A stretch of DNA of 64,000 bases, from the NCBI RefSeq assembly GCF_000265205.3, contig NT_187163.1:124001-188000 (forward strand), written 5' to 3'. The stretch's first letter is position 1, and each line of letters starts with the position of its first letter. The stretch is from Sinorhizobium fredii USDA 257 (GTDB lineage Bacteria; Pseudomonadota; Alphaproteobacteria; Rhizobiales; Rhizobiaceae). The position numbers and the translations under genes were made by a program. Below, one piece after another: positions 38,557 through 56,483 of this stretch. Below the pieces are notes generated by a model. The model ran no database searches and had not been told where the DNA came from. It saw nothing but the letters and a program-made list of their open reading frames with translations.

Positions 38557-41500
38557 TTACTCATTCGCCGGCGGCCAGCGCAGCTTACCACGGCCGACGC
38601 GTAAGGCTTCCACAAGCCTGGTGTTGCCCGGCAACCGACCCCAGAAGAGGCTGGGCTTGGGATCGACAGCCGACTTTTTGAACGGGGCAAGCCGTTGGTA
38701 GTCTGGCGTCGCCAGCCAGGTGCGCCCATCACCTTCGTCGGTGACGATCCGATAGAGGCCGGCAGGAGGAGCGGCCGCGATGTCGAGCAGGCGTTTATAG
38801 TTTTCAACTGACCACTTCTGGATGCCGCCGCTGAGTGCTTCCGTTCGGAAGCGCGCCCATAATGCGGCGGTATCAGGTGTCGGCCAGTCGCCAGCGTCGG
38901 TGTAGGCCGTGATCTCGTCGGATTCCAGCCAGACCCGCATCTCAGCGGGTGTGACGAAGACAGGTTGGGCATCTTTGATCGCCGCCATAGCCGCACGCCG
39001 TGATGGAAGGCCCGCACGGATCAGCATCGCCATCATGAATTGCGGGACGCCGGTTTCAACCGCCGCGGCGCCGCCGCCGGCAACCGTCTCTGGCGACCAG
39101 CCGAGGGACATGCGGCGGGTGCGCACGGCTTCCAGCGCCCAGACCAGGCGATAGGTGAAGGCCTCTTCGACTGCGCGCATGTTCTGAGGTCCGATTTTGG
39201 CAACGTCCTCGCCTGACACCCAACTATGCAGGATGGCCTTCCAATTCGCCGGTAGCGCATTGGCCTTGTCGGGGATGAAGGGCCGCATGAACAGCAGCCG
39301 TTCGCCGAGACCGCAGAGGGCGTCGACGAGTTCGTCGATGTCGCCTCTCAGCGCCGCCTCGTCTGCCCGATCGAGCAGTGTAGCCAGTTCATCAGCCATC
39401 GCGTCGATTGAGAGACCGGCTTCAAGCCCAACGCCCATGGCGAAATGTCCGCGTCGCGTCTGTGCCGTGGTGCTTTTCCAGATGAGGTCGGCGCGTGCCT
39501 CAAACACCTTCTTGTGCAAAGGGGCGATGTCCTCGTCCTCGCGGGCGATCTGGCGGGCCCAGAGGGACCCCTTAAGCGCCTCGTCCAAGAGCTTCGGCAG
39601 ATCCGCGCGATCGGCGTCCAGCGCTTCGATCAGGCCGAACACGGTCGCGTCGAGGCGTTCGACGATCTGCGAGAGCGGCTCCTCGTCGATGGTTTCTTCC
39701 TCGTCATCGCCGCCCTCTTCATCGTCGTCGCCATTGGCCTCATACTCCACGGCGGCGGCCAAGCGCTCTGCGACCGCAGCTTCTTCCTCGGGCGATCTCC
39801 AGGCTTCGCGGGCGTTGGCGAGATATTCCCAGGCGTCGTCACGATCCAGGACACCCTCGCGGGACAGGCGTTCGAGGATCTCGGCGACGATCTGGATGAG
39901 ACCGCTTTTCAGTGTGCGGGCCTTGGCGGAGGCGACCAGCTTTCGCCATTCCCTTTTTCGCCAGTCGATTTTGTCGAACATGACATGAACGATCAGCCCC
40001 TCGACGTCGACGAAGGCACGCCCGGCGCGGCCCGCGACATTCGCGAACTCCTCGCCTTTGATCTTCTCGGAGGCGCGATACAGTGCGGGCACCAACAGTA
40101 CGGCGGCGTTGAGATTGAGGCCCTGCGAGAGCGTCGGCGAAGCGACGATGACCTTCAGTACCCCCTCGGACAGCAGGACTTCCAACTCGCGCAAGAATGG
40201 ACTTGGCAGCCGGCCGTGGTGGATGGCGACGCCCTGCTTGAGGCAGGCGACGGCGGGATGGTCTTCGCCCAGCCATTCTTTGCCGACCTCCAAGGCCCGG
40301 GCGATCGACGCTTCGTCCTCCAACAGGGAATGCAGATAGCCGCGCTTGCAGAGATCCATGGCCTGTTTGCCGTAGCTCTCGACCCAATTCGCCTGGGTGG
40401 AGAAGATCAGGGTCCGCTTGCCCTGGCTTGCAAATTCCCATGCCGCGAACAGGGCGAGGTGCGAATTCTTGCGCGGATAGGGCTTTTTCTCCTTTCCTCG
40501 TGCTGGTTTCTCCACGACAAATTTGTCGAGAAAGGGACCATCATCGTCGAGGTCGAGCCGGAGCAGTGCGTCCTTGCCTCGCCATGTGAGCGCGCCGAAC
40601 CGCTGTCGTGTGGGACGCCAGTCGGAACGCACCGGCTTACCCGGTTCGTCGGAGCGTATCCAGGCGGTGAGATCGTCCAATTCGTCACCGCTCGGCAGGA
40701 TGGCGGAGAGACAAACAATCCGGCGGTCTGCTGCATCCGCCCGCCGAAGCAGGCGCTGCACCAGCGTCTCGTAGCGGATTTCACGCTCGCTCGGGCCGAT
40801 CATGTGACCTTCGTCGAGGACGATCAGACCGACGTCGTCGATCAGCGACGGGTCGCTTCTCAGCGCGAAGTCGAGCTTCTCGGGCGTTGCAATGATGATC
40901 TCGCGGGTGCGCAGGGCGTCTTCATCACCGACCGAAAGTCCGCTGGCGCCGTAAAGGGAGGAGACGCTGAAGCCGAGGGGCGCGAAGGTCTTTCTGAAGG
41001 AGCGCTCGGTCTGGGCCGACAAAGCGCGCAATGGCGTGACGATCAGCACCCGGCGCGCCGACGACAGGGTCATAAGCGCGGCAATCTCGGCCACCCGGGT
41101 CTTGCCCGCGCTGGTCGGCAAGGCGACGACCAAATCGTCGGTGACATCCGTGGAACGTCGGGCCGCTTCGCGCTGCGATGGCCATAGCTCCACCTCGGAT
41201 GTCTTGCGCGCGTAGAGCGACGAGATGAACAGCCGGCGCAGGTCCGGATATTTTTCCTCTGTACCCTCTGGCGGTTCGGTTGGCAGGTTCTGGTGCAGTG
41301 AATGCTGCCAGAGGTCGTCGATCAGGTGGCGACAGAGGTTCGAGATCCACCACAGCGGAACGTTCTCGGCGTTGTCCGCAAGGCTGACCGCGGTGCGGAG
41401 CAAGGTCCGGGCGCTTTCGATCGGCTCAGGCTCGCCCGTCTCGAGTGCGAAGTCAAAATGCGCCAAAGCTCGGCAGATCGTTGTGTTGAGGATCGTCGAC

Positions 41501-42060
41501 AGCACCTCGTCGACGTCCGGTTCTTCATCCCGCAGCGCCTCGGCGATCTGCTCATCGCCGTGAGCCTCGTCATCCAACCATCCGCGAACGAAGCCGCGCA
41601 GCTGACCCAGATCGCGCAAGATCAGGTGTCGAATCGCCGTTTCACCCGGCGAGGTGTTGAGGTCGTCCGTGGTCTCGTTGAAGAGGGAGTAAGCGACCGC
41701 AGAGAACCCGGCCAGGTGATAGGCCGCCGCGGCGATGGTGCGACGGAAACCGCGATCGGGTGACTCCGGATCGCCGTTGCGCACCAGGGCTTCGAAGGCA
41801 TTGGCGGCGCGCTCGAAGGCCTTGCTGGTCAATTCCGACGAATCGGCCTGAGAACGCAGAGCCATCGCGCCCCGAAGCAGGGCGAAGCCGTGTTCAGCGA
41901 GATCGGTTTCGATTGTGGCGCCAAGGGGCGGTGCGTTCGGTGGGAGCACGCCCTTCTCGCGCATCAGCGACCACGCCGCACCGCGATAGAGCAGGCGCCC
42001 AAGGACGCCGTCGACGGTCGCGGTCGCCAGGAACGCGGTCAGTTCGTCAATCGTCTCCAA
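38557..42060 (-). CDS. hamB: Hachiman helicase HamB (Ski2/Brr2-like SF2)
   Basis: A 1167-residue SF2 helicase. The first ~290 residues are helical and variable; then Walker A ALPTSAGKTRVAEIAAL (~315), motif Ia LIVTPLRALSAQTE, motif II LIVLDEGHMIGPSERE, motif III CLSAILPSG, motif V SPTLSQGLNLNAAVLLV and motif VI NVAGRAGRAF (~630). It starts at TTG 42060 with AGGAGG 9 bases upstream and overlaps hamA by 14 bases. In Hachiman, HamB scans DNA and controls the nuclease HamA, which degrades phage or damaged DNA. Identified from architecture and pairing. Confidence 0.85.
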   Translation of the reverse strand: METIDELTAFLATATVDGVLGRLLYRGAAWSLMREKGVLPPNAPPLGATIETDLAEHGFALLRGAMALRSQADSSELTSKAFERAANAFEALVRNGDPESPDRGFRRTIAAAAYHLAGFSAVAYSLFNETTDDLNTSPGETAIRHLILRDLGQLRGFVRGWLDDEAHGDEQIAEALRDEEPDVDEVLSTILNTTICRALAHFDFALETGEPEPIESARTLLRTAVSLADNAENVPLWWISNLCRHLIDDLWQHSLHQNLPTEPPEGTEEKYPDLRRLFISSLYARKTSEVELWPSQREAARRSTDVTDDLVVALPTSAGKTRVAEIAALMTLSSARRVLIVTPLRALSAQTERSFRKTFAPLGFSVSSLYGASGLSVGDEDALRTREIIIATPEKLDFALRSDPSLIDDVGLIVLDEGHMIGPSEREIRYETLVQRLLRRADAADRRIVCLSAILPSGDELDDLTAWIRSDEPGKPVRSDWRPTRQRFGALTWRGKDALLRLDLDDDGPFLDKFVVEKPARGKEKKPYPRKNSHLALFAAWEFASQGKRTLIFSTQANWVESYGKQAMDLCKRGYLHSLLEDEASIARALEVGKEWLGEDHPAVACLKQGVAIHHGRLPSPFLRELEVLLSEGVLKVIVASPTLSQGLNLNAAVLLVPALYRASEKIKGEEFANVAGRAGRAFVDVEGLIVHVMFDKIDWRKREWRKLVASAKARTLKSGLIQIVAEILERLSREGVLDRDDAWEYLANAREAWRSPEEEAAVAERLAAAVEYEANGDDDEEGGDDEEETIDEEPLSQIVERLDATVFGLIEALDADRADLPKLLDEALKGSLWARQIAREDEDIAPLHKKVFEARADLIWKSTTAQTRRGHFAMGVGLEAGLSIDAMADELATLLDRADEAALRGDIDELVDALCGLGERLLFMRPFIPDKANALPANWKAILHSWVSGEDVAKIGPQNMRAVEEAFTYRLVWALEAVRTRRMSLGWSPETVAGGGAAAVETGVPQFMMAMLIRAGLPSRRAAMAAIKDAQPVFVTPAEMRVWLESDEITAYTDAGDWPTPDTAALWARFRTEALSGGIQKWSVENYKRLLDIAAAPPAGLYRIVTDEGDGRTWLATPDYQRLAPFKKSAVDPKPSLFWGRLPGNTRLVEALRVGRGKLRWPPANE

Positions 42061-42841
42061 GGTCTTCAGCCTCCTTATACATGGCCGCGATGAAGTCTTG
42101 ATGGTCTTCGACGTGTATGTTCACGACGTAGTGGTCCCGGTTGGTTCCCGTGGCGTCGAAGTCCTCCTTCAACGACGCGTGGGGGCCGTTACCCGACACG
42201 GTGAAGAGCATGTGGTCGATGCGATCGGAGCGAAGGGACTTCAGGCCCACCTCGTCACGGAGGCTGCGGCCTAGCGCGTTGTCATCTGGATCGTTGCTCT
42301 CCAGCAGGCGGTTGGCGACAAACAGCAGGGAATCGGGCGTGCAGCGGCCGTTGTCGCGGTTAAGCACCTTGCGGGCGCTCGTGACCGTGGCCTTGCCGAG
42401 CACCTTGTTGCTCTTAGCTTCGCCTTTCAGGAGCCAGAGCTTCTCGCCGGCCCCATCGTATCCGGCGCCGATGAAGTCGTCGCCGCGCATGGCCATGTTG
42501 CGGCCGTCCTTGTAGCGGAGGCGGCGCACCGGGACCCGCAGGCCGATCTCTTCCTCGACCAGCTCGGTCGCGAGAATCTCACCGAGATCGCCGGAGCGAC
42601 CTTTGGGCGTCTGGGGCATCGCCTCCCTGAGGATATTGGCGGCCACCTTGTACCCGAGCCGCTTCACGTCTTCGGCGATCCGTTCAAGTCGGTCGTAATG
42701 CGAACGAATGGTCTCGGCGAGGTCATCACGAATCTCGTCGCGGCCGCCATCCTTCTCGACATAGATCCAGAAATGCCTGCGCTTGTCCTTTTCCTTGGCG
42801 GCGTGACACCACCGCTCGTATAGCCCCACGTTTTCCCCCAA
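42047..42841 (-). CDS. hamA: Hachiman nuclease HamA (DUF1837)
   Basis: About 265 residues of the DUF1837 family. Nuclease core: GDLGEILATELVEE (Glu), MRGDDFIGAGYDG (Asp) and LLKGEAKS (ExK) near residue 140, a PD-(D/E)xK arrangement. The start is TTG at 42841, 3 bases after the abiEii stop, or GTG at 42829 with GGGGGA upstream; no ATG is in frame. It is translationally coupled to hamB. HamA is held inactive by HamB and released on sensing aberrant DNA. Confidence 0.85.
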   Translation of the reverse strand: MGENVGLYERWCHAAKEKDKRRHFWIYVEKDGGRDEIRDDLAETIRSHYDRLERIAEDVKRLGYKVAANILREAMPQTPKGRSGDLGEILATELVEEEIGLRVPVRRLRYKDGRNMAMRGDDFIGAGYDGAGEKLWLLKGEAKSNKVLGKATVTSARKVLNRDNGRCTPDSLLFVANRLLESNDPDDNALGRSLRDEVGLKSLRSDRIDHMLFTVSGNGPHASLKEDFDATGTNRDHYVVNIHVEDHQDFIAAMYKEAEDLGDD

Positions 42842-42844
42842 CTT

Positions 42845-43864
42845 TCATTTTACGGCCGCGCTGTTGGCACGCCCCGCGATGTCCCCGCACCGCTCTAGCA
42901 GCACCTCGAACGCCTCGGCGTCCTCAAGCAGCAACCCGTCCTCGACCATCCGGCTGTAGTCAGTGGCGAGCGCTGTGCGTGCTTCGCCAATTGGCACGAG
43001 TTGCAGTTTTCCGTTGACGGCGGCGTCATAGTCGATCGTCGCACCGTCGGCTGCCTTCTCCGCGAAGAACATGCTCTTGTGGCGGGCAACTGCATCGGCA
43101 AGGTCACGGTCGGACATTGCGTTAGCGGCTATGCCTGCTTCATCCAGGCGTACGACGTCATGCCAATGGCGGGCGAAGCGCTCGCCACGAAGCCGCTCCT
43201 GCAAGCAGAAAACATGCATCGCCGTTGCCTTCTCCCAGAAGGTCCGCTCGGCATGCATCACTCGTGGGCGCGCCATCGGAAAATCGACCCCTTCGATCAT
43301 TCCCGCCGCATCGCAGATGACATCACGTGGGCTTGCCGGCTCGCCCGTCGACCGAGCCCCGAACTCCAGCATCACGCTCGGCGCCACATAGCCCGACCCG
43401 GCCGAGGTCGCCTCATAGTCGATGAACAGCTTATCTCCTTCGACCCTGATCGTTGCGGGAAGCGCTTGCGCATCGATCGCACCGGCGACAAGCGGCCGGA
43501 CCGTCCCGTCGACCCATTCGGGCAGTCGATGCCGGACAGCCTTCGACCAACGCTTCTCCTCGCTGCGGTTTCTTGGCAGGGCCTCGCCGTTCTCGCCCAC
43601 CAGATCGGGGGCGATGGCGCGAATGTCGTAGGTCAGATCCACGTCCTCGGAAAATCTCCGAATGACGCCATAGGCCTTGGACAGGGATGTGCCGCCCTTG
43701 AACACGAGATGCTCGCCGAGATCGGACCCGAACAGTGTCGCGAGGGTCCAGACGACCCACACGTCCTTTTCCAGGAGATGGGCGGGGCGCCCGGATCGAT
43801 CGGCGGCGACGGCCAACGCCTCGCGCCGATCGTCGACCGACAATCTCAGGAACGCCTCAGCCAT
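42845..43864 (-). CDS. abiEii: AbiEii/AbiGii-type nucleotidyltransferase toxin
   Basis: A 339-residue toxin of the AbiE type IV toxin-antitoxin system. The nucleotidyltransferase motif is clear: VFKGGTSLSKAYGVIRRF followed by SEDVDL (GG/GS-Xn-DxD) near residues 57-77, with the lysine of LLEKDVW before it and a second acidic site in RVEGDKLFIDYEA. Such enzymes stop growth by modifying RNA. It overlaps abiEi by 8 bases and lies 3 bases before hamA, so toxin and Hachiman genes appear to be one transcript. Confidence 0.88.
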   Translation of the reverse strand: MAEAFLRLSVDDRREALAVAADRSGRPAHLLEKDVWVVWTLATLFGSDLGEHLVFKGGTSLSKAYGVIRRFSEDVDLTYDIRAIAPDLVGENGEALPRNRSEEKRWSKAVRHRLPEWVDGTVRPLVAGAIDAQALPATIRVEGDKLFIDYEATSAGSGYVAPSVMLEFGARSTGEPASPRDVICDAAGMIEGVDFPMARPRVMHAERTFWEKATAMHVFCLQERLRGERFARHWHDVVRLDEAGIAANAMSDRDLADAVARHKSMFFAEKAADGATIDYDAAVNGKLQLVPIGEARTALATDYSRMVEDGLLLEDAEAFEVLLERCGDIAGRANSAAVK

Positions 43865-44450
43865 GCGCGACCTTGCCGACCGTTCTGGCGAGCCAACTCG
43901 GGAGTTGGGGCGCGGCCGCGACGAGTTCGCCGAAAGTGGAAGATGGCAGCTTGCGCTTCAATGTCTTCAAGGCCGCTTCCGCCTTCTCAGGTCCCAGCCA
44001 GGCGAGCGCGCGCACAGCCTGGCCGGCAGGTCGATCGGCCAAAGCCAATTGCCAGCGCGGTGCGTGCCGCAACTCGACGACCTGCTGGCCCAAATTCATT
44101 GTCCGGCTGCGACCGGATGTCAGATAGACCGACCGAACCGGCACCTGAGTTGTGAGACCCAGCGCGTTGGCCGCCGACGCTCCATTTGACACGATGACCT
44201 CGCCACGCTGGAGCGCGAGTGCTTCGACGGTTTTCTCAACCGAAGGCGCGCGGACGCCGAACCGGCTCGAAACCGGGCGCAAATATACGCCGCGCCCGGC
44301 ACGCATCAGTCGGCCACGCTCAGCCAGGCGCGATAGAGCCTGGTCCACCGCAGCTCGATTGCCGAGATGAAGCAGGCCTTTTGCTGCGATCGGTGCGCCC
44401 TCGGGCAAGCTTTCGGTATATGTCAGTATCTGTTCAGCGAGTCGTTTCAC
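43857..44450 (-). CDS. abiEi: AbiEi-type antitoxin and autorepressor
   Basis: A 197-residue antitoxin. N-terminal winged helix (PEGAPIAAKGLLHLGNRAAVDQALSRLAERGRLMRAG) for operator binding; the C-terminal domain (VRSVYLTSGRSRTMNLG and AVRALAWLGPEKAE) is that of the AbiEi/DUF6088 group. It starts at GTG 44450 with AGGAG upstream. Known AbiEi proteins neutralise the toxin and repress their own promoter through an inverted repeat, which is present here. Confidence 0.87.
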   Translation of the reverse strand: MKRLAEQILTYTESLPEGAPIAAKGLLHLGNRAAVDQALSRLAERGRLMRAGRGVYLRPVSSRFGVRAPSVEKTVEALALQRGEVIVSNGASAANALGLTTQVPVRSVYLTSGRSRTMNLGQQVVELRHAPRWQLALADRPAGQAVRALAWLGPEKAEAALKTLKRKLPSSTFGELVAAAPQLPSWLARTVGKVAHG

Positions 44451-44497: not shown

Positions 44498-44766
44498 TCT
44501 CTGCTGGAGCTGCCGTTAACGACGTCGCATCTTGTCGCTTAGATCCAACGTGTTGTAGCTTCTTTTAAGCTCGCACGGTGATGCTGCCGTCCTCTCATTG
44601 GCGATGAGCATCGAATCACCTACATTGGACGTATGGATCATCCGGCCATGCCGTCCACAGTGGCGAAGCCTCAGGGCAGGAACGACTGAATCAACCCGCA
44701 AGAACCTCTTTCCAAGGTGCACGGGCCGAGTGGACACGCCATAGATTGCACCGCTGGAGTGGTTCC

Positions 44767-45687
44767 ATGCGAATCCAGCTTCCCAATCTCGATCGGCCAA
44801 AACAGGCCGCCAAATATCTTGTTCGTGCTGCGACCAATCTGAAGCTCTCGTATGCGCATGAAGCGCTTGCCAGTGTGCTGGGCTACCGCGATTGGCACGA
44901 TCTTTCCGGCAGCTGCCATCATGATCGACAAACATCACCCGGCGATTTGTGTCTCGAAGATGCGCTGCGTGTCATTCTCGAGCTAGCCGATGCTCTCCGT
45001 CTCCCTTACGCCGAGGTTCAGTACGCCGTGTCCAAGGCACGCCTTTTGCGTGAAACACCTTGGTCGCTTGACGAGCAGATGACGTTGCGCGCCTGGATCT
45101 GGCGGCGACGTCTTTTTGGTCCCCCGGGGCGGGGGAGGCCGGGGACAGTCGTGAAAGACAAGGCATATGGCGCCAACACGCCGGCTTATCTTCGCCGCGC
45201 TGGCCGTCCCACATATCTGTTCTTTGACACGGGGTTTGGTGAACGCGCAGACTTTGAGGTCGTGACTCCGCGCAGGACCCTCTCTGATTTCGTCCCGTCC
45301 CGCCTTTGGCTCCCCTACGGTGTCTGGAAACTGAAGGACGGCTCTGAAGTCATTTTCTCCCGGGACTATTTTCCGACGTGGGGAATTTGGGATGATCGTG
45401 TTCAGCGGCTCGCCCCTTGGCTTTGGATCAATGGCATCGTCGACCAAAGTCATTTTTGGAAGGCGGGAATCGGCGGCTGGACGAGCAGTTCGGCACGAGA
45501 GATGGCGATCGCCCACTTGGCTGTTCACCGCATCTTCGAACTTCCCAGGCTAACCGATGCAATGCCGCATCTTTTTGAAGCCGCTGTCGATTCCATGGAA
45601 GATGGTGTCAGGAGGCTTTATGCCGCGGGACGTCGCGACACCACGCTCCCATCCTATGCCGAATTGAACAAGCGCATTCTTAGATAA
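44767..45687 (+). CDS. Protein of unknown function between the two defence operons
   Basis: A 306-residue soluble protein, start chosen at 44767 with GGAG 7 bases upstream. The N-terminal 45 residues (AAKYLVRAATNLKLSYAHEALASVLGYRDWHDL) form a helical motif seen at the start of several plasmid- and island-borne proteins of unknown role. The rest is rich in Trp and aromatic residues (LWLPYGVWKLKDG, YFPTWGIWDD, APWLWINGIV). I do not recognise the family. It is divergent from abiE and 107 bases ahead of the helicase operon, so it could belong to either or act alone. Confidence 0.6.
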   Translation: MRIQLPNLDRPKQAAKYLVRAATNLKLSYAHEALASVLGYRDWHDLSGSCHHDRQTSPGDLCLEDALRVILELADALRLPYAEVQYAVSKARLLRETPWSLDEQMTLRAWIWRRRLFGPPGRGRPGTVVKDKAYGANTPAYLRRAGRPTYLFFDTGFGERADFEVVTPRRTLSDFVPSRLWLPYGVWKLKDGSEVIFSRDYFPTWGIWDDRVQRLAPWLWINGIVDQSHFWKAGIGGWTSSSAREMAIAHLAVHRIFELPRLTDAMPHLFEAAVDSMEDGVRRLYAAGRRDTTLPSYAELNKRILR

Positions 45688-45794: not shown

Positions 45795-48700
45795 ATGACG
45801 ACAGTCAATACGGTCAAACAACATAAAAAACTCTCACTGGAATCCCGGTTCACATTTGCCGAGGACTCTCTCGCCCGTGTGAGCGGCGGTTGGGATTCCG
45901 ACCTGCGGCCAGCAGTCGGGCTCGAGGATGGTGAGCGATACTTGCTGCGGCTCTTCCGGAAGACTGGCACTGCGCTGGACGACGACTTGAAGGCAATTGT
46001 TAATCGAGGGCTGCGGCGAATTCGACGTGTTCTATCTTCACGACGGGCTCGTGAAGTTCTGGTCGAAGTGCTCGAGGTCGTCGAGGATGCGCAGGAAATC
46101 GCGATCGTTATGGCTGATCCCGGTAGCCCGATTTCCGGAACGTCGCATAGAAGGAGAGCAAGACAGGGCCGCTTTCTCACGAGCACGAGCCGAGCTATTT
46201 TCTGGCGCAATATCGTCCGGATCGCGGAGGCGCTTACTCTGTGCCATGATGCGGGCATCGTGCATGGCGGTGTGAGCACCCACACCATCTTCTCGCACTC
46301 AGACGATAGCGATGACTGTCGTCTCGGGGGATTCGAAGCATGCGTCCACATTGCTGACGGCGACCTTGGAGCCTCCGGACATCTCCTTCGCTCTTCTGGA
46401 GCGATTTCATTTCGACAGGATTGGATCGATCTTGCCGAAGTGGCCGCAGCTATACTCGGCCTGGATGGAGATACCCCTCCTTCGTTGCTATCGATCGAAC
46501 GCCGAATGCTGGATCGTTTGGCGAACCCGCCGCAGTTTCAGCTTTTTGACGGCAGCATCGTGCTTGGCGAATTAAGGGAAGTCATCGCCGAGCTCGACAG
46601 GGTCGGGTCGAGCTCTGACGGAGAACTCATCCTATATCCTTCACGGAACGTCCTTCAGAGCGATTTACCGGCTCTGTCGTCCGGGACGATACCGGCGCAT
46701 GATGTCGCTGCCCTTATGCAGTTCGTCGCGGAAGATCTGCTTACAGCCGGGGTTCGTCTCATTCCGGCAGGTCAAGATAGCATACGCATCCTCACCGATC
46801 TGGCGATCTACAACGTGAAGATCGTCAACGACGCAGTTGGAATGATCGAGGCGGCGCACAAAAGACGCCCGAACGACTGGATACAAGGCGCGGAGGATGT
46901 TGTTCACCGTTTACATTTGGCCAGGAATCGCGCGAGTGCCGAAGAGCGCGTGCGGAACCTTGGTCCAGGTGCACGACGATGGCGAGACTTCTCAGAGCGT
47001 GTGCGAGCAATTGGGGTGACGAATGATGTTCCTATGTGGTTCGCTCTTCTCCTCCTTGAGGCTTTTACCCTACTAAGGGAGCAGTTTCGCCTGTATCCCG
47101 TCGAAGTCCTTGCGTCGCCCGATAGCGAGCAAAATGTGGTGATGCTCGCACCTCGCGATGACTCGATGCGGGACGATCAGCGTGAAATAATGGGATTGCG
47201 GCCTGCGGCGGAGGCAATGTGGCGCGAACTCAAATACGACGACGGAAAGGTGAATTGGACCGTATCGAAGTCTGCCAAACTGGCAACCGGCCGTGAACGA
47301 TTGCCGGAACTCAGTTATGAGGGAAGCAACCTTGTTAACGGGAAACTTGCGTTCGCCTTTGCAACGAACCTGACTGTACCGCCAGGACAGTTGCTCTTTC
47401 TCCGGCCTCGCAAGGATAACGGAACCGAGCGAGCCATCAGGCGGCGGCTGCAGAACATTGTCGCGGCCAGGGCCAACGTGGAGCTCCTCAGAGCTTTGGA
47501 CGACCCGGCGCAGGTGGCAATGGATGACATGCTGCGTGATATCGCTGTTCCGGGTTCGCCGCCGGCAGATGCAGATATGGAGCCATCGAAGATTGAGGCA
47601 TGGCAGTCGATCGTCGCGGGGAGGTCGATTAACGTCGTCGTCGGCCCACCTGGGGTGGGAAAGACGTTTTTGATTTCACACCTCGTGAAAAGCATCCTCG
47701 ACCAAACGCCCGATGCTCGCATTCTGGTGTCTGCCCAGAACCATGAGACGCTCATTCATATGGAGGACGAGCTTCGGAAGTTCCTGCCCGAGCAGTCGAC
47801 AATTGTCGTTCGCGTCGAACGGTCTCGGGTCAGCGAAGAAGAGAGCACCCTGCGGCAAAGCTCGGTCGCGTTGTTACGCTCCATCTCCAAGCCTGACACT
47901 GAACGCGCGGCCGTCATGGCAAACCAGCTCCATCAGATCACTCAGGCGCTAAATCCTGTCGACAGGTCGGAAAAGTCAACCGCCGAACGTGCTTTGCGCG
48001 ACACCGACAATCTGACGCTTCGCTCGTCTGACGTCACCTTAGCCACGACCTCATCCCATGTCCTTGAGGAAATGATTGCCGATGGCGAACAGTTCGACTG
48101 GGTTTTCATCGAAGAAGCCGCGCGCGCAAATGGTGCTGAGCTAATTGGCGCCCTCCTTCTCGGTAACCGCCGGGTTATGATCGGCGACCATAATCAATTG
48201 TCGCCCTTCGATGTGGTCGAGCGCCAAAAGTTCTACGATGGCAAGCGCGCAAACGAATTGCTGAGGGATGCCAAAGAAAAGCTTTCTGCGATCCCCGATC
48301 TGCCAGGTGAAGTGGAAATCGCCCTCGACGCGCTCAAGGCGGATCAGTTCTTGCTCAGCGATGTTCTCGCCACCGCTTCTCGCCTCGAGGAGCCATTCAG
48401 ATCAATCGCCGAGCGAGAGGCCCTCAGAGCCGGAGACGCTAAACGTCCGAGCTCGATCGCGAACACCTTGCGCGAACAGAGCCGGATGCATCCAGCAATT
48501 GGCGAGCTTGTCTCAAACACCTTCTATAAAGGTGAGCTCGTTCCATCGGAGCGCGTGAAGCAGCGTAAGCCAGCAGTCGAAACAATTGCGGGCTTCCCTG
48601 CATCTCCCGTCGTGATCCTCGACATGCCCTCGTTGAGCGTCGTCAAACGCAAAGCGTTCGAGCACACTGTCAGGCGGTCTTACCGAAATGAGTCGGAAGT

Positions 48701-49235
48701 AAAGGCGATAGTATCCGCCATGAAGAGGTTGCGCCCAGTCGTGTCCGCGGACGGGCGTCGGCCGACGATGGCGGTATTGTCGCCCTATTCCGCTCAAGTG
48801 AGTCATTTCGAGCGCTTGCTCAAGCCCGAGATCGATACGACCGAGAAGACCCTTTTTGGCTTCGCCAGCCCGCGCGGAGATGGAAAGTTTATCTATACAA
48901 GTGACAGCTTCCAGGGTGGTGAGGCAGACGTGATCGTCGCCAGCCTCGTTCGAAACAACGTGCTCGTTGGCACGCGAGCCCTCGGTTTCATCAAGAACCC
49001 GCAGCGACTGAATGTGCTCCTCAGTCGAGCCAAGCATAAGCTGATACTTGCCACCAGCCGTAGGTTTATCAGCAACACCGTAAATGGGATCGATCCGGAC
49101 GGCCTGAATGATGAGCTAGGCTTCCTGCGAAGGATGCTCGATGAAATCGCGCGGCTTGCAGAGACGGAATTTCCGGGGGTTGGTATGGGCGCTTCCATCA
49201 TCACGGTCGATGAGAATGGGAAGCTCTCCCGATGA
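45795..49235 (+). CDS. mkoA: Kinase-like domain fused to SF1 (COG1112) helicase, Mokosh MkoA-like
   Basis: A 1146-residue protein. Residues ~20-260 have a protein-kinase-like fold: a VIV-type hinge, the helix ahead of the catalytic loop (AEALTLCHDAGIVHGG), and positions equal to HRD and DFG, but changed to HGG (~155) and GGF (~177). The C-terminal half is an Upf1-like helicase: Walker A VVGPPGVGKTFLI (~617), motif II WVFIEEAARANGAEL (~770), motif III GDHNQLSPF, motif V DSFQGGEADVIVASLVRNN and motif VI RLNVLLSRAKHK. Kinase-like plus COG1112 helicase followed by a PLD gene is the layout of type I Mokosh anti-phage systems. The next gene overlaps by 4 bases. Confidence 0.8.
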   Translation: MTTVNTVKQHKKLSLESRFTFAEDSLARVSGGWDSDLRPAVGLEDGERYLLRLFRKTGTALDDDLKAIVNRGLRRIRRVLSSRRAREVLVEVLEVVEDAQEIAIVMADPGSPISGTSHRRRARQGRFLTSTSRAIFWRNIVRIAEALTLCHDAGIVHGGVSTHTIFSHSDDSDDCRLGGFEACVHIADGDLGASGHLLRSSGAISFRQDWIDLAEVAAAILGLDGDTPPSLLSIERRMLDRLANPPQFQLFDGSIVLGELREVIAELDRVGSSSDGELILYPSRNVLQSDLPALSSGTIPAHDVAALMQFVAEDLLTAGVRLIPAGQDSIRILTDLAIYNVKIVNDAVGMIEAAHKRRPNDWIQGAEDVVHRLHLARNRASAEERVRNLGPGARRWRDFSERVRAIGVTNDVPMWFALLLLEAFTLLREQFRLYPVEVLASPDSEQNVVMLAPRDDSMRDDQREIMGLRPAAEAMWRELKYDDGKVNWTVSKSAKLATGRERLPELSYEGSNLVNGKLAFAFATNLTVPPGQLLFLRPRKDNGTERAIRRRLQNIVAARANVELLRALDDPAQVAMDDMLRDIAVPGSPPADADMEPSKIEAWQSIVAGRSINVVVGPPGVGKTFLISHLVKSILDQTPDARILVSAQNHETLIHMEDELRKFLPEQSTIVVRVERSRVSEEESTLRQSSVALLRSISKPDTERAAVMANQLHQITQALNPVDRSEKSTAERALRDTDNLTLRSSDVTLATTSSHVLEEMIADGEQFDWVFIEEAARANGAELIGALLLGNRRVMIGDHNQLSPFDVVERQKFYDGKRANELLRDAKEKLSAIPDLPGEVEIALDALKADQFLLSDVLATASRLEEPFRSIAEREALRAGDAKRPSSIANTLREQSRMHPAIGELVSNTFYKGELVPSERVKQRKPAVETIAGFPASPVVILDMPSLSVVKRKAFEHTVRRSYRNESEVKAIVSAMKRLRPVVSADGRRPTMAVLSPYSAQVSHFERLLKPEIDTTEKTLFGFASPRGDGKFIYTSDSFQGGEADVIVASLVRNNVLVGTRALGFIKNPQRLNVLLSRAKHKLILATSRRFISNTVNGIDPDGLNDELGFLRRMLDEIARLAETEFPGVGMGASIITVDENGKLSR

Positions 49236-50971
49236 ACAACATCTACATTCCGGCATGGCATTATCGGGCGCCAGGCATCGTTCAGCGCACGTGGGGCTGG
49301 AGCCCTATCGAGGAAATGGTGCTGCTGTCGCTTGATCGCAACCCAGGAACGATCGATGCCGTCGCGGCACACTTGGGAATCCTGCGACAGATTGTGAGCT
49401 CGACCGTAGCCCGCCTTATGCAGTTCGGCCTCGTTGAAGTCCGGCTTTCGCCACAGCCAGTGCTCGCCACAAGCAGCGTCGGGCATAGCTTCATTCGCGC
49501 GGGACGTGCGCTTCCTGAACGAACCACGGACCGCGAAATCGGTATCAGTGTCGTATATGAAAAGGTCGGGCAGTCTGTCTTCAGGACGCGAGATGTGGAC
49601 ACGATCCCGGTTTCGAAACTCCCGGCCAGCGGCGCGATTGTCGCTTTTCCATCGGGCGAAGCGCCGGAGACGGACTATTCGATGATGCAGCGCGTCAGTC
49701 AGTTCACGGCCGGTACACTTCGTCCGGGCGAATGGCTTCGGGGTGTCGAGGCCAACAGTTCGTTCCTGGAACGAAAATTCCTGGTTCTCAATCTTGACGA
49801 TGTGAAAGACGGGATACTGCCACTAGGGGCGAGCGACCAGCTCGTGGAAGCCCTGAAGGCGACAATAAAAACCGGCATCTTGCCGACGACCGCTGCTCCG
49901 CCAGTCAGCCAGCCTGTGGTGATCGACACGTCGTTTGCCACCGAACAGCTTATCGTTGGGTCCGAACAGCACTTGCAGCGCTTCGAGCAAATCGTTGGCG
50001 CTGCAAAGTCGCACATCTTTGTCCTTTCAACGTTTGTCGCTTCGCAGTCCGATGAGAAAGGCAAAGAGAGGCGCGAGAGGATATGGCAGGCCCTCGAGGA
50101 TGCATGCAGACGAGGCGTCAAATGTCACCTGTTCTTTGGAACGTCGCTTGATCGCGCCAAGCATGCATCAGCCATGCAGGAACTCTACACTCGGCTATCT
50201 GCGGTTCGGCAGACGAGAGGCTATCTGCTCGTCCAGAGAGATCCTGTGGGCAGCCATGCAAAGTTTCTCCTAGCAGACGATGGCGATGGTGGTGCAATTG
50301 CGGTGATGGGGTCCTGCAATTGGCTTTCGTCCCCGTTTTCGGCTGTCGAGGTTTCCGTAGAACTCAGGGAAACCAACGCTGTTGCGACCGGAATGGATCT
50401 ACTCCGCGAGATCATTGCCAAACTCTCCGGCGCCAGCCGATCCGTGGAAACGCTTTTGTTTATGGCGTCGGAACTGCGGCGTCAGCGTGCCCGTCTTTCA
50501 TGGTCTTCAGAAACCCCGCCTCCTACCGCCAGACTAACCATTCTTCGGGCCGACGACCACGAGCGCCTTCTCCGCGTTGCGGCGCACGATGCGCAGGAGC
50601 GTTTCGTTTGCTGCACGAATAAGGTCGGAGCCAATATGGTCCCCGCCCTGTTCGACCCCGCAGAGGTCGCAGGCAAGCGATTGAGTGACGTGCGTGTCTA
50701 CTACTCGCGACGGTCGGGGCCGATCAAACGGGGGCATGTCGCACAACACCGCGAACGTCTGAATGGCATCGTCGAGTTAACTGGCGTACCGGAGCCGCAA
50801 TTGCACGCCAAGTTCCTGGCGTGGGACAACGACCATATCGTCGTCAGTAGCTTGAACTGGGGCTCGCAATCGGGATTGGAGGAGAACCCATTGGACGAAA
50901 TCGGCCTTTACCTGCAGGGCACAAAGCTTGCGACATCGTTGCTAGATAAATTCGAGGCAGCGAGTAGATGA
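49232..50971 (+). CDS. mkoB: Phospholipase D-type nuclease, Mokosh MkoB-like
   Basis: A 579-residue protein. An N-terminal winged helix (WSPIEEMVLLSLDRNPGTIDAV...VSSTVARLMQFGLVEV, residues ~25-70) is followed by two PLD half-sites: SHAKFLLADDG...MGSCNW near 340 (HxK) and LHAKFLAWDND...VSSLNWGSQSG near 523 (HxK). Both histidines and lysines are present, so it should be active as a nuclease. Its ATG overlaps the helicase stop (ATGA), showing translational coupling. In Mokosh the pair degrades or blocks phage nucleic acid. Confidence 0.82.
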   Translation: MNNIYIPAWHYRAPGIVQRTWGWSPIEEMVLLSLDRNPGTIDAVAAHLGILRQIVSSTVARLMQFGLVEVRLSPQPVLATSSVGHSFIRAGRALPERTTDREIGISVVYEKVGQSVFRTRDVDTIPVSKLPASGAIVAFPSGEAPETDYSMMQRVSQFTAGTLRPGEWLRGVEANSSFLERKFLVLNLDDVKDGILPLGASDQLVEALKATIKTGILPTTAAPPVSQPVVIDTSFATEQLIVGSEQHLQRFEQIVGAAKSHIFVLSTFVASQSDEKGKERRERIWQALEDACRRGVKCHLFFGTSLDRAKHASAMQELYTRLSAVRQTRGYLLVQRDPVGSHAKFLLADDGDGGAIAVMGSCNWLSSPFSAVEVSVELRETNAVATGMDLLREIIAKLSGASRSVETLLFMASELRRQRARLSWSSETPPPTARLTILRADDHERLLRVAAHDAQERFVCCTNKVGANMVPALFDPAEVAGKRLSDVRVYYSRRSGPIKRGHVAQHRERLNGIVELTGVPEPQLHAKFLAWDNDHIVVSSLNWGSQSGLEENPLDEIGLYLQGTKLATSLLDKFEAASR

Positions 50972-52113
50972 CCGGGGTAGTGACTGAAAAGTCCGCGCCC
51001 AACGCCGCAAACGCCGGCCTCGTCATGAAATTTTTGGAGCTTGATGGGCAAAACGGTCAGCCGCCTCGTTCCGTGAGTATCGGTGGCCTCGAGCTGGAAC
51101 CACTAAACTACGACCAGCTGGCAGGTGCACAACTGCATAGACCTCTATCCGTCCCGCTCAATTGGCGTCACGCCAGAATTCTTGAGACGAACATCGAGGG
51201 CATTGAGATCGATAGTCTGGCACGCGGAAACGCGACGCTCGAGAGCACTCATAATTCGATGGCCGTCAGCCTGCAGCGTGGCGGTTGGCTTCCGTCTGGT
51301 CTCGCGATCGCCGATGGTGGCGTTACGATCCTGCCCGATAGAAATGTCATCAGCCAGATAAAGGGACGTTTCGAGGGCGGCTCTGTTGTCGGCGCGGGTC
51401 AGGACTTTCTGGACTTGCTTGCTGAGCAGGAGGTGCGACTTAACCCCCTTCTGTTCGCGATCGAAGGCAATGACCGGAGAATTCCAGATCATCAGATCGT
51501 AGAAGCGCAGCTGACGGAAGTGACGGCCTTTCTCCGCAAAGCGCTTCCGAAGGCAGAGCTTGTTGTCGGCAACGACAGTCTGAGGGGAGCTCTTGGCCTG
51601 ATCGAAGACACCCGTGCTGGGCTTGAGCGAAAGAGCAAGTTCCTCCTTCATCTCTCGCCTGTCCTCACTGCTCCAACGAGCCGCAGGCTTTTCGACAAAC
51701 GATGGACCGATGTGCTTGATGCGGCCGATCGCTACGGTGTGGCTCGCGGTTCTTTGGTTGTTCTGGCGGCGTTGAGCTCAGTGGCGGTTCCAAACTCTGG
51801 CAGCCCCGCAAAGAAGATGTTGAAGTTTCGGGCGACATACTCTGACGAGGACGCCTACAACGCGCTCGCAGATATACGTTCGCTTGAAATATTAATTCAC
51901 CTCCTCGCGCTGTTTCCCGGAGAGCGTCCTGCCATTTTTACAGCCGACAGAGCATTGGCGCTTTTCTGGACCGGAATCCGGGCGCATAACTTCCGACGCG
52001 AAATGCGCTCGGTATCGTGCGATCTAGCGCCGGTAGAGCAGTTGTTTCCGGGCGACACGATGAACCTCTGGAAGAGCGATTGCAGACCTCGCGCAGCCGC
52101 GCAGGCAACGTAA
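50968..52113 (+). CDS. PIN-like protein, third gene of the Mokosh-like operon
   Basis: A 381-residue protein whose ATG overlaps the mkoB stop (ATGA). PIN-like features: VTILPDRNVISQIKGRF (Asp ~124, in the place of the first PIN aspartate, with an Asn two residues on), AYNALADIRSLEILIHL (Asp ~302) and PAIFTADRALALFW (Asp ~327), each at the end of a hydrophobic strand as in PIN RNases. The first ~110 residues are of unknown fold. I infer a metal-dependent RNase that may be an effector or accessory of the system. Described type I Mokosh has two genes, so this third one is unusual. The call rests on motif reading only. Confidence 0.6.
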   Translation: MTGVVTEKSAPNAANAGLVMKFLELDGQNGQPPRSVSIGGLELEPLNYDQLAGAQLHRPLSVPLNWRHARILETNIEGIEIDSLARGNATLESTHNSMAVSLQRGGWLPSGLAIADGGVTILPDRNVISQIKGRFEGGSVVGAGQDFLDLLAEQEVRLNPLLFAIEGNDRRIPDHQIVEAQLTEVTAFLRKALPKAELVVGNDSLRGALGLIEDTRAGLERKSKFLLHLSPVLTAPTSRRLFDKRWTDVLDAADRYGVARGSLVVLAALSSVAVPNSGSPAKKMLKFRATYSDEDAYNALADIRSLEILIHLLALFPGERPAIFTADRALALFWTGIRAHNFRREMRSVSCDLAPVEQLFPGDTMNLWKSDCRPRAAAQAT

Positions 52114-52119
52114 ACCCGT

Positions 52120-54870
52120 TCATTCGGCGCTTCGTCGATCAATTAGCTGCGTGTGGTCACAGCCGGGATATTGGTTGCACCCGAGAAAGCGGCCGTTGTC
52201 GCGACCTTTCCGTTCTACCAGTTGGCCCACGCCGCACGCCGGACACGGATTTAGCGTGTCACCATCAATCGTCTCGAAACGCAAGTTTTCGCCGGCGATT
52301 TCTGAGAGCTCCCGAATATATCTGGATGGCTCACGGCTGTTCGTCAGCAGGAACACACCGCGGCTCGCGCGGGTCAATGCGACATAGAAAAGGCGGCGCT
52401 CCTCGGCAAACTCAAACGTCTCCGGTCGCGGCATGACTAGATTGAGCAGCTCATCGTCCTCTATCCGGCTTGGCACCCCATAATCGCCTTCGCTGACATC
52501 GAGCAGAATCGTATAGTCGGCCTCAAGTCCCTTGGCTCGATGGAACGACAGTCCCGAAACTTCGATATGCTCGAATTTTGGCATCGCCCCCCTGAACGGA
52601 TCCAGCTGGTTGTAGCGCCACAGCACCATGACCTTGAGCTTCTGGTGCTCGTCGCTCCGCCACTGTACGGAAATCCCGCCAAGGAAGGTATCGAGGCGCT
52701 TCAGCAATCGGAGGCATGAATCGGCAAAATCTGACTTGCCGCGATCACCGTCGATTGGAATGACCCGGATCGATCGTGGGATCGCCGGCCGTGTCGACCG
52801 CACCGATTTCTTAAGCTGGATCGGATTGCGCTGGACGAAGCTGGCCGCTGTTTCGGCGATGAGCTGATTGCAGCGATAGGTTTGCTCCAGACGACCTTGC
52901 CAACTTGCCCCAAAATTCGCCTCGAACTGCGTGAATATCGTAATGTCCGAACCGGCAAAGCGATAGATCGACTGCCAGTCGTCACCCACCGCAAAGATCT
53001 TGGTGAACGGCTTCTGGTGTTTCAGCGCCTTGATCAGCTTCGCGCGCGGCTCGGAAATATCTTGGAACTCTTCGACGAGGATCAGGGAGTATGGGCTCTC
53101 ATATTGTCCGGTTTCCACTAGCCGCGTGGCATTGGCGATCATCGAGTCGAAATCGATGCGGTTGGCCTCTACCAGCTTCTGGGAATAGGTTTCGGTGATC
53201 TTCCAGACGACCTGCGCAAATTCCCTGGCGCGGGTGCGATCGTGAAGCGATTTGGCGCGCTCAAGCAGCATGTCCAGGGTCAGGTGGCCGGCGCGAATGT
53301 GTTTGATGCAGATCGCAATCAGCTTGTGATAGTGCTTGATGACAACCGGCTCGAGGGCTTTCACGATCGCCGCATAGCTTTTACGTTCGAACCGAATGCC
53401 CCGTTTCGCAAGCTCTGCTTCGAGTTCCGCAATCAGCGATCCATCACTCGCTTGCGCCGACGTGGTCCGGAATACATCCATCCCGGCCTTGCGGTATGCG
53501 GCCAGCTTGTTTTCGGCATGGGTGACGTAGTCCGCGAAGGGGGACGTGCCGTCAGCGTTGATGGCCAGATGCTCATGGATCGTTTTGCTGGCGGGGTAAT
53601 AGAAGTCCGGATGGACGTACCGGATTTCCCCGTTTCCCTCGTTGATCGGGATCTGACGTTCGTACTCGAACTCGACGGAGTGCAGCCAGAGCCAGTTGGT
53701 GACTGTCTGCTCCTGGAGCGACTTCACATAGATGCCGGCCATCGTGCCGACGGTCGCATTTCCTTTCCGCCGGCGCACCGACAGGTAGCGCTCGTAGTCT
53801 GCCTCGGAATCGAACACCTCTGCCGGGATATCCGCCTTAGGATGAAGGACGAGGAGGTTGACCCAAAGCCCGGCGAATTCCGCGTCCGAACGCAGCAGCT
53901 CGTCTATGATCTCTTCGATCACTCTGGCCTCGCCGGCGGGATGTTCGACCCAGTCGGCAAGCTGAGGGGGACGGCCTTCGACCTCTTCGATAATTCCGCG
54001 ACCGAGGGCGTGAAACGTGATCACTTTACATCCCGGATTTCCTGGATCGACCGCGAGCTGTCTGTATATCCGCTCTTTCAGTTCATCGGCGGCGCTCTTG
54101 TTGAAAGCGAGCACAAGGATTTCCTCAGGCCGATAGAGCTGCTTGTCGAGGACGTAGGCGACCTTGCCGACCATGGTGGCGGATTTGCCTGAGCCGGCAG
54201 AGGCGACGAGGAGATTGTTGTCTTCCAATCGAATGCACGCCTCGCGTTGCTGATCGGACAATGACCGGCCATCCAGATTGTCGTAGAACGACCGGTATCT
54301 CGACAGCTCAGCCGAGACAAACGCATCATTATATCTGTGGCGAACATCCGGATCGGTGAGGAAGGTGAGCGATCGGGGCAGCGCCGCTTTAAGGGTGGCC
54401 GGCATCAGTTCCGGGTCGAACAGAGGGTGCGAAAGCGCGGCCGCGGCTTCACCTGTTACATTCGCAATCGCACGGGCCAGGTCGGCATGGGCCAGATATT
54501 GCCGGTTACCCTCGGTGATAGACTGTAGTTTCGTATCCACTTCGCTCAGGCGCTCGGTGTCGGAGCCGATCAAGTCGAAGAGGTGGTTATTGATAAAGCT
54601 GTAAAGGTCTGCCGCAATCCGGGTTGCTGCCTCTTCTCCGAGGCAGGGCAGGCTGTAGATTCGATTGCGAGACCGGACTTCGACCGAATGCCACAGCAAA
54701 GCCTTGCCGACGGAAATGGCTATGACGTCCAGACAAGGAAGATTGTCGGCGCCGTTCACGTTGATCTGCAGGGCCGCCGGCAACGACGAGCTCAGCGTCA
54801 CTTTCCATTTTCCTTGGGGAAGGAGTCGGGCAAAAAATCCAGGCCGGTGTGTTCGAACACGATCAGACAT
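52120..54870 (-). CDS. UvrD/helicase IV-like SF1A DNA helicase with zinc ribbon
   Basis: A 916-residue helicase like HelD (helicase IV). An N-terminal ~190-residue domain precedes Walker A LVASAGSGKSATMV (~225), motif II LILVEEFQDISEPRA, motif III FAVGDDWQSIYRFAGSD, motif V SFHRAKGLEADYTILLD and motif VI RLFYVALTRASRGVFLL. The end is a topoisomerase-type zinc ribbon (CPACGVGQLVE...GCNQYPGCD). It unwinds DNA 3' to 5'. It is convergent with the Mokosh operon (6 bases apart) and follows a frameshifted gene by 25 bases. Confidence 0.88.
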   Translation of the reverse strand: MSDRVRTHRPGFFARLLPQGKWKVTLSSSLPAALQINVNGADNLPCLDVIAISVGKALLWHSVEVRSRNRIYSLPCLGEEAATRIAADLYSFINNHLFDLIGSDTERLSEVDTKLQSITEGNRQYLAHADLARAIANVTGEAAAALSHPLFDPELMPATLKAALPRSLTFLTDPDVRHRYNDAFVSAELSRYRSFYDNLDGRSLSDQQREACIRLEDNNLLVASAGSGKSATMVGKVAYVLDKQLYRPEEILVLAFNKSAADELKERIYRQLAVDPGNPGCKVITFHALGRGIIEEVEGRPPQLADWVEHPAGEARVIEEIIDELLRSDAEFAGLWVNLLVLHPKADIPAEVFDSEADYERYLSVRRRKGNATVGTMAGIYVKSLQEQTVTNWLWLHSVEFEYERQIPINEGNGEIRYVHPDFYYPASKTIHEHLAINADGTSPFADYVTHAENKLAAYRKAGMDVFRTTSAQASDGSLIAELEAELAKRGIRFERKSYAAIVKALEPVVIKHYHKLIAICIKHIRAGHLTLDMLLERAKSLHDRTRAREFAQVVWKITETYSQKLVEANRIDFDSMIANATRLVETGQYESPYSLILVEEFQDISEPRAKLIKALKHQKPFTKIFAVGDDWQSIYRFAGSDITIFTQFEANFGASWQGRLEQTYRCNQLIAETAASFVQRNPIQLKKSVRSTRPAIPRSIRVIPIDGDRGKSDFADSCLRLLKRLDTFLGGISVQWRSDEHQKLKVMVLWRYNQLDPFRGAMPKFEHIEVSGLSFHRAKGLEADYTILLDVSEGDYGVPSRIEDDELLNLVMPRPETFEFAEERRLFYVALTRASRGVFLLTNSREPSRYIRELSEIAGENLRFETIDGDTLNPCPACGVGQLVERKGRDNGRFLGCNQYPGCDHTQLIDRRSAE

Positions 54871-54895: not shown

Positions 54896-56277
54896 TCAGT
54901 CCGAAAGCCACTTGCAATCGGTCCAATGCCGTTCATACCGTCTTGCGAATTCTGTCATCTCCCGAACATTGGCCTGCGGTGTCTGACAGGCGCGGGCGCA
55001 GGTCGAGACGACATCCCGGTAAAGGGACGCGGAGACGGGCCGGATGCCCTCGTAGTTCATGATCAGGTCGGGAAGGCGCTCCGTGATTGCCTCTCCCCGA
55101 GGCGCCATGACAAAAGTCGGCGGTGTCCCGTATGCATTGATCAAGATGTATCTCCAGCTCGGGTCGGCCTGACCTTGGGTGGGAACGATCTCGCAAGGGC
55201 AAGCATCACCGCCGCCGGAAATCTCCTGATAGACCGCTTCGAGCGCGTGAGCCTTCCTGGCAATCAGGACATAGGGTCCTGCGGGCGTGTAGCCGCCCAT
55301 CCCTTCGTCATATTCGATGCCTAACAGGCGTAAGAGGTCGAAGCGCGCCGCTCGGTCCAGGAGGGAGCGCTCCGAGATGAACCACTGGAGTTGCCGCAGG
55401 GTAATCCCGGCTGCGGTGGCGATCTCTCTGGGCGAATTGGGCCAGCAGGCGACCAGGTTTTTGGCGATTTCGGCCGCATTGTCGTACTCTTCGTAGGCCG
55501 TGATGTCGTCGTCGTCATCGACGTCCTCTGATGGGTCTTCTCCCGAAAGCAGCCATATCCTGCCGGTAAATCCGTCGTGTTTGAAATAACGCGGCCGATC
55601 GGGTGGGAGTGAGGTCTCCCAGGATGACAGCCATGCACCGGCTTCCCAGTCCACTTTTTCGAGGAGAATGTCTGCCGGCTTTCGCATCGGCAATTCCAGC
55701 CAAGACTCGATCTTCTCCTCGAGTTTTCTGTTGCTGAGTCTGAGAGGACCGCGACCCGCCCTCCAATCGTGATCCTCGTGTGCATCGCGACAAAGGGTCT
55801 CGACGGACGCGACCAGCGACAGACCGACCGGGTCGTGTCTTTTTGACAGCCACAGGGAGGCATCCTGGGCTGAGCGCAACGATGCGGGCACTGTTTTATC
55901 CTTGGCGTCCGCAACCTCAGGCCGGATGCCGATCTTGGATCCGCCGCCAGTGTCGGATCGGCCTGTGCCACATGGCGGTTCACACGCAGAATATCCGGCA
56001 GACCGCGCAAACCCTCTGCGTTTCCCCATGCCGTCAGCAGCACGTCGCGCAACGATTTGTGCTTCTCCATGGTGGAAAATGTCAGCCAGCGGATCGGCAG
56101 GCCGGCAACGGTGAGCCCATAAAGTATGATGGGGCTCAGCCCATGCCGTTTGGCGTCCGCTAGTCGTATCGGATCGCGGATAGCGACAACGCCGTGCTGA
56201 GGGTGGTGGAATAGAAACTTGGCGGTTGAGACGTAGAAGTGATGTTCTCGGTCTGGCTGTTGCGCCTTATTGTCCAT
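54896..56277 (-). pseudogene. Protein of unknown function with HTH-like region, frameshifted; upstream of the helicase IV-like gene
   Basis: The N-terminal ~120 residues read from ATG 56277 (HHFYVSTAKFLFHHPQHGVV, SLRDVLLTAWGNAEGLRGLP). Near 55925 the coding potential moves to another frame, which continues KDKTVPASLRSAQDASLWLS to the stop at 54896. One base missing there would give a single protein of about 460 residues. The C-terminal part has a possible helix-turn-helix (PREIATAAGITLRQLQWFISER). The family is not recognised. The gene probably formed a pair with the helicase downstream. Confidence 0.6.
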
Positions 56278-56483
56278 GGCTGCTCTCAAAATCATCAAAT
56301 CGTTGGTCAGCATCCTACGTTTTCGACGTCAGCGCCTAAAGTACTTCCTTGCTTTAAATAGCGCTTGTTCGCAGTTCCCTAGCCGCAAACTCCGCGCGAA
56401 ATGCGCCTGATCAGGGTCGTCGTTGCTTGCCCCGACGCCGATGCGTATTGTGCGCGGCCATGCCGCAATCGGATCGGAATAAA

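Follow-up and report, generated by a model that had tools for sequence, protein, structure and literature searches.

A type I Mokosh operon of Sinorhizobium fredii USDA 257 with an extra, overlapping gene for a probably PIN-like protein

A third gene behind mkoA and mkoB

We analysed 64,000 nucleotides of Sinorhizobium fredii USDA 257 (assembly GCF_000265205.3, contig NT_187163.1, positions 124,001-188,000 of the forward strand), referred to below as the window. It contains three plus-strand genes that overlap in series. The first two are mkoA and mkoB, the usual genes of a type I Mokosh defence system, and the third encodes a protein of an unnamed family. Our best explanation, to which we give a probability of a little under one half (about 0.48), is that the third gene was added to the 3′ end of a two-gene Mokosh operon by one rhizobial mobile lineage, and that its product is probably PIN-like and acts as an optional extra effector. 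The genes and residues concerned are as follows.

45795..49235, plus strand: mkoA, 1146 amino acids (aa), AAA_11/AAA_12 (COG1112-type) helicase; from PADLOC, Pfam and the Walker A motif
49232..50971, plus strand: mkoB, 579 aa, MarR-like N-terminus and two HxKx4D phospholipase-D motifs; from PADLOC and PLDc_2
50968..52113, plus strand: third gene, 381 aa, unnamed, putatively PIN-like family; open reading frame (ORF)
51337..51948, plus strand: stretch covering the third protein's four invariant acids; from the alignment and codon positions
51337-51339, plus strand: D124 (codon position)
51463-51465, plus strand: E166 (codon position)
51871-51873, plus strand: D302 (codon position)
51946-51948, plus strand: D327 (codon position)

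An earlier note on this DNA had described three plus-strand genes joined by ATGA, and both the ORF coordinates and the junction sequences agree with this, each junction being a 4-base overlap. It had also assigned the first two genes to type I Mokosh, and the near full-length PADLOC matches support the assignment: MkoA matches PDLC03920 over residues 14-1123 (E 4.9e-224) and MkoB matches PDLC03922 over residues 3-575 (E 3.8e-91). The helicase part of the MkoA reading held up (AAA_12, E 4.6e-36; AAA_11 also present; Walker A motif GPPGVGKT at 617), while the kinase-like N-terminus gave a weak profile match (E 0.011). MkoB was rightly called a two-site phospholipase-D nuclease, as it has a PLDc_2 match (E 7.8e-14) and HxKx4D motifs at 342 and 525; its MarR-like stretch (E 2.3e-5) lies under the Pfam cut-off. 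Adjacent, overlapping mkoA and mkoB genes are annotated in the same way in the relatives L082, L083, L085 and L086, not in L084. The sequence thus supports a type I Mokosh operon with the usual two genes: helicase, two-HKD phospholipase-D nuclease and 4-base overlap are as in the known system, and the difference lies in the further gene that overlaps mkoB at the 3′ end of the operon. No description of a three-gene form was found in the titles or abstract openings listed from the open-licence PMC literature, and nothing was found in that literature on Mokosh together with a PIN domain.

A passage of PMC11291487 describes Mokosh as degrading foreign viral transcripts. Because the start codon of the third gene lies inside the mkoB stop, its translation is likely coupled to that of mkoAB and the third protein would be made in step with MkoAB. 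A coupled PIN-like nuclease could then cooperate with MkoAB by adding a second cutting activity alongside it, and would most likely be an extra, optional nucleic-acid cutter (probably of RNA) within the same infection response.

Properties of the third protein

Four acids, D124, E166, D302 and D327, are invariant in 171/171 aligned members of the third-protein family. The aspartates that the earlier note had placed near 124, 302 and 327 were therefore correct, and E166 is a fourth invariant acid that it had not named. The acids run in the order D-E-D-D, with D302 and D327 25 residues apart, as in PIN nucleases (Rrp44 PIN, protein-only RNase P, VapC). The AlphaFold2 (AF2) model has a predicted local distance difference test score (pLDDT) of 93.5 and places a beta-rich domain at the N-terminus and a helical insertion between acids two and three. 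Comparing this predicted structure with PIN folds, as the earlier note had proposed, gave a moderate and non-exclusive match to Rrp44 and RNase P chains; the PIN chains in the comparison were recognised by title or by what we take to be their identity. The third protein differs from PIN nucleases in its added N-terminal domain, in the absence of any profile match and in having 136 residues between acids two and three. In small PIN proteins this distance is about 50 residues.

Several results weigh against a PIN-like protein. Cyclodipeptide synthases and class I tRNA synthetases scored on a par with PIN domains in the fold comparison, and Foldseek searches of the PDB and of viral models returned nothing significant for the third protein. 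A PIN Pfam at E <= 1 was listed by none of 93 family members (0/93), in a scan whose filters remove most matches above 0.1, and hhalign of the family against 11 PIN proteins gave a probability of 1%. The earlier PIN-like reading is thus backed by the invariant D-E-D-D set and by a fold resemblance shared with other folds, and not by profile methods. More generally, at E <= 0.1 the third protein matched no family in PADLOC, Pfam or NCBIfam, nor did any PDB sequence match it at E <= 1. A further protein search, started from a divergent alignment, yielded at least 120 matches; those listed all came from the same family and none had a PIN Pfam. The phage collection gave no match by tblastn.

The equal scores allow a different reading, in which the core is Rossmann-like, related to cyclodipeptide synthases or class I tRNA synthetases, and acts on tRNA or aminoacyl-tRNA rather than as a PIN nuclease. 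We regard this as distinctly unlikely. The third protein has no Pfam or PDB sequence match to such enzymes, and its invariant acids point to a nuclease. From sequence and model, the third protein is probably a PIN-like, metal-dependent nuclease, with RNA as its probable target.

When the third gene was compared with its copy in Aminobacter, dN/dS was 0.26, indicating purifying selection and hence that the gene is used. In this one pair mkoA and mkoB gave 0.08, so that the third gene is under weaker constraint, a point against the extra-effector reading.

Occurrence of the third gene beside mkoB

The earlier note had argued from the tight coupling that the third gene is likely part of the system, and had named rarity beside mkoB as evidence to the contrary. 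The gene proved to be rare there, and the argument is not borne out generally. Among 341 Rhizobiaceae genomes (MkoB at E <= 1e-20, with fragments and broken copies counted; third protein at E <= 1e-10), 16 have MkoB and 2 have the third protein, each time beside mkoB; the remaining 14/16 MkoB genomes lack the third gene at this position. In an order-wide search, 187/397 genomes passed a loose MkoB threshold and seven had a clear MkoB (E <= 1.3e-73; next 1.1e-19). The third gene was found in 1/7 of these, the window's own genome, and the 13-15 kb around mkoB in the other six held no third-protein match at E <= 1e-4. Likewise, 28 MkoB-side loci (L082-L092, L110-L126), some of which overlap each other or stem from weak or partial MkoB matches, contained no third-gene match.

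The same pattern was seen at other scales. MkoB was present in 64 plasmid records (45 nearly whole) and the third protein in 15; one of the 40 records listed out of these 64, from Aminobacter, has both. Within the genus, MkoB was found in 3/33 genomes and the third protein in 3/33 same-genus genomes (among 100 relatives). Class-wide, the family occurs in 1/385 genomes, again the window's own, and MkoB in 2/385. A regular Mokosh component was therefore rejected, given 2/16 MkoB genomes, none in the 28 loci and absence at the same place in the relative L127, described below. The two-gene relatives show that Mokosh does not generally need the third gene, which looks like a lineage-specific add-on.

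These counts also bear on the idea that there is a separate Mokosh type with three genes, of which the third protein is an obligate subunit or regulator. The tight coupling at both junctions favours it, as does the position of the gene next to mkoB in both Rhizobiaceae carriers. However, the two carriers have identical MkoB and third proteins and are hardly independent, the gene is missing from two-gene relatives whose MkoB is about 80% identical, and it is cut in Shinella and reduced to a deletion remnant in Roseibium. We consider an obligate role quite improbable.

Relatives with, without or with remnants of the third gene

Two further features define the place of the third gene in its relatives.

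50959..52150, no strand: interval with the third gene, missing in L127 and in the decayed L128; from blastn and the state of the flanking genes
52120..54870, minus strand: UvrD/helicase-IV-like gene, convergent, 916 aa; Pfam UvrD-helicase 4.7e-42

The convergent UvrD-like gene ends six bases past the third-gene stop, and its product matches NCBIfam DNA helicase IV (E 4.9e-109, under that family's cut-off). Since it is a neighbour both with and without the third gene, we treat it as context and not as a proven part.

MkoB, third protein and UvrD of S. glycinis (L008) and S. fredii USDA 205 (L009) are 100% identical to those of the window; MkoA is whole in USDA 205 and lacks residues 1-261 in S. 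glycinis. The nearest other whole copy, in the same gene order, is on the Aminobacter conjugative plasmid pSR5 (MkoA 91%, MkoB 94%, third protein 85% and UvrD 86% identical). In Shinella (L020) the order is again the same and MkoB is 93% identical; the third gene is truncated there, ending after residue 178. A gene order conserved at 85-94% protein identity argues that the arrangement is more than chance, and the overlap of mkoB with the third gene is retained in both Aminobacter and Shinella. In Roseibium (L072) a deletion fuses an mkoB fragment to the third protein's residues 179-381. Homology to the window stops at 51500 in Shinella and begins at 51501 in Roseibium; this common breakpoint in two different rearrangements may be a coincidence. 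An IS66 element was considered as the cutter of the Shinella copy and rejected: the ORF closest to the cut encodes an IS4/5-family transposase (DUF4096), and two others encode chaperonins.

Two relatives have no third gene at the same place. In L127, whole MkoA (77%) and whole MkoB (79%) are followed by 41 bases and then by the end of the same UvrD-like gene; by blastn, window positions 50958 and 52151 are 41 bases apart there, where the window has 1.2 kb, and no remnant of the third gene was found. In L128, positions 50958 and 52172 are 69 bases apart. The simplest reading of these relatives is a gain of the third gene in the Sinorhizobium-Aminobacter-Shinella lineage, rather than loss elsewhere.

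Two observations speak for other histories. The UvrD gene is broken in both L127 and L128, and L128 is decayed (no MkoA, MkoB from residue 125 with the first 124 missing, and 93 residues of UvrD), which makes loss of the third gene through decay possible. Moreover, three alphaproteobacterial plasmids (L073-L075) have, beside a complete UvrD gene (90-91% protein identity), nothing of the third gene but its tail. AbiE genes are present in the stretches fetched from them, with no MkoA or MkoB match, so that the third gene may have come with UvrD. A DUF6088 (AbiEi) gene overlaps the tail in all three (annotated so in L073 and L075, hypothetical in L074), and the tail is likely a scar of module exchange.

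The wider family

A protein search found at least 257 homologues of the third protein at E <= 0.01, among them P0002-P0004 with 82-88% identity. We examined 43 family loci, comprising 34 genome contigs and 9 plasmid regions, with several near-identical pairs and the window not counted; in unannotated loci the genes came from a home-made caller, so that starts are approximate. A scan of viral contigs gave four loci. Four of the 43 have mkoB (two Sinorhizobium, Aminobacter and Shinella) and 39/43 have no MkoB in the stretch fetched. By script, 22/43 have a same-strand gene within 120 bases upstream (offsets in L041 and L077 are unreliable), and 11/43 have a 4-base start/stop overlap with it. The overlapping partners are MkoB (4), RES proteins (3; L012 and L015 scanned, L016 assigned by likeness to L015), a DUF1810 protein (2, identical), a PF20066 protein (1) and a 137-aa protein (1). 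Three members adjoin AbiJ-like proteins 79-86% alike, one of these also beside IetS; one lies downstream of hsdR, methylase and hsdS genes, and one follows a 244-aa gene that is itself behind a type IIG-like enzyme. The remaining members follow various other genes or lack a nearby gene upstream.

These loci lend weight to a competing explanation, namely that the third protein represents independent cargo, encoded by a mobile family's stand-alone defence or toxin gene that lies behind mkoB by chance and uses its transcript, with no link to the working of Mokosh. It fits the 39 loci without MkoB, the 21/43 without a same-strand gene within 120 bases upstream (by script) and the unrelated upstream genes of the others. 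It also fits S. glycinis (L008 3611-6265), where mkoB and the third gene are whole beside a shortened mkoA, a point against the extra-effector reading. Arguing the other way are the overlap, which both Aminobacter and Shinella (MkoB 94 and 93% identical) have preserved, and the coding constraint kept on the third gene; we find independent cargo somewhat unlikely.

Relatives of the third gene sit behind several unrelated defence genes, and in the window the gene looks like an optional add-on of one rhizobial mobile-element group. The AbiJ-like and Xre-RES operons are alike in having a family member directly behind a defence or toxin gene; unlike the window they have no MkoAB, and their members are 42-50% identical to the window's third protein. 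Only tentatively, and with the odds against it, do we suggest a broader view: the family may represent undescribed, mobile PIN-like effectors that attach to the 3′ ends of defence operons of unrelated kinds (Mokosh, Xre-RES, AbiJ-like, restriction systems), frequently through overlapping start and stop codons, and give each host system an interchangeable second nucleic-acid-cutting arm. If right, a common but unnamed family would become a class of plug-in defence effector open to testing, and comparing Mokosh loci that have the third gene at this place with those that lack it there would let its contribution be measured directly. A caution also follows, as tight gene coupling alone does not prove system membership.

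In the Sphingomonadales loci L005, L012, L013, L015, L016, L017 and L079, a gene of about 165-175 aa follows the family member (six grouped on similarity and L079 on its annotation). No Pfam match was obtained for the copy from L015, the one scanned, and the gene is a possible partner.

Neighbouring genes in the window

One further ORF lies upstream of mkoA.

44746..45687, plus strand: upstream ORF, 313 aa, weak PF20066-like N-terminus (E 0.014)

It was found only alongside the three-gene form (L009, L020, L004 as pieces in different frames) and is absent from S. glycinis (L008). A PF20066 domain also occurs in some members of the third-protein family (P0087, P0117, P0138).

A Hachiman pair is located on the minus strand at 38557-42841, with overlapping HamB (38557-42060, 1664 bits) and HamA (42047-42841, E 3.2e-112). 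Beside it, at 42845-44450 on the minus strand, is an AbiEii/AbiEi (DUF6088) type IV toxin-antitoxin pair. In the window, L008 and L009 the neighbour of UvrD (54896-56313, minus strand) is apparently frame-broken, with ORFs of 377 and about 330 aa that lie in different frames; its Aminobacter counterpart is a single 473-aa ORF. DNA matching this gene was also found near mkoB in L083, L127 and L129.
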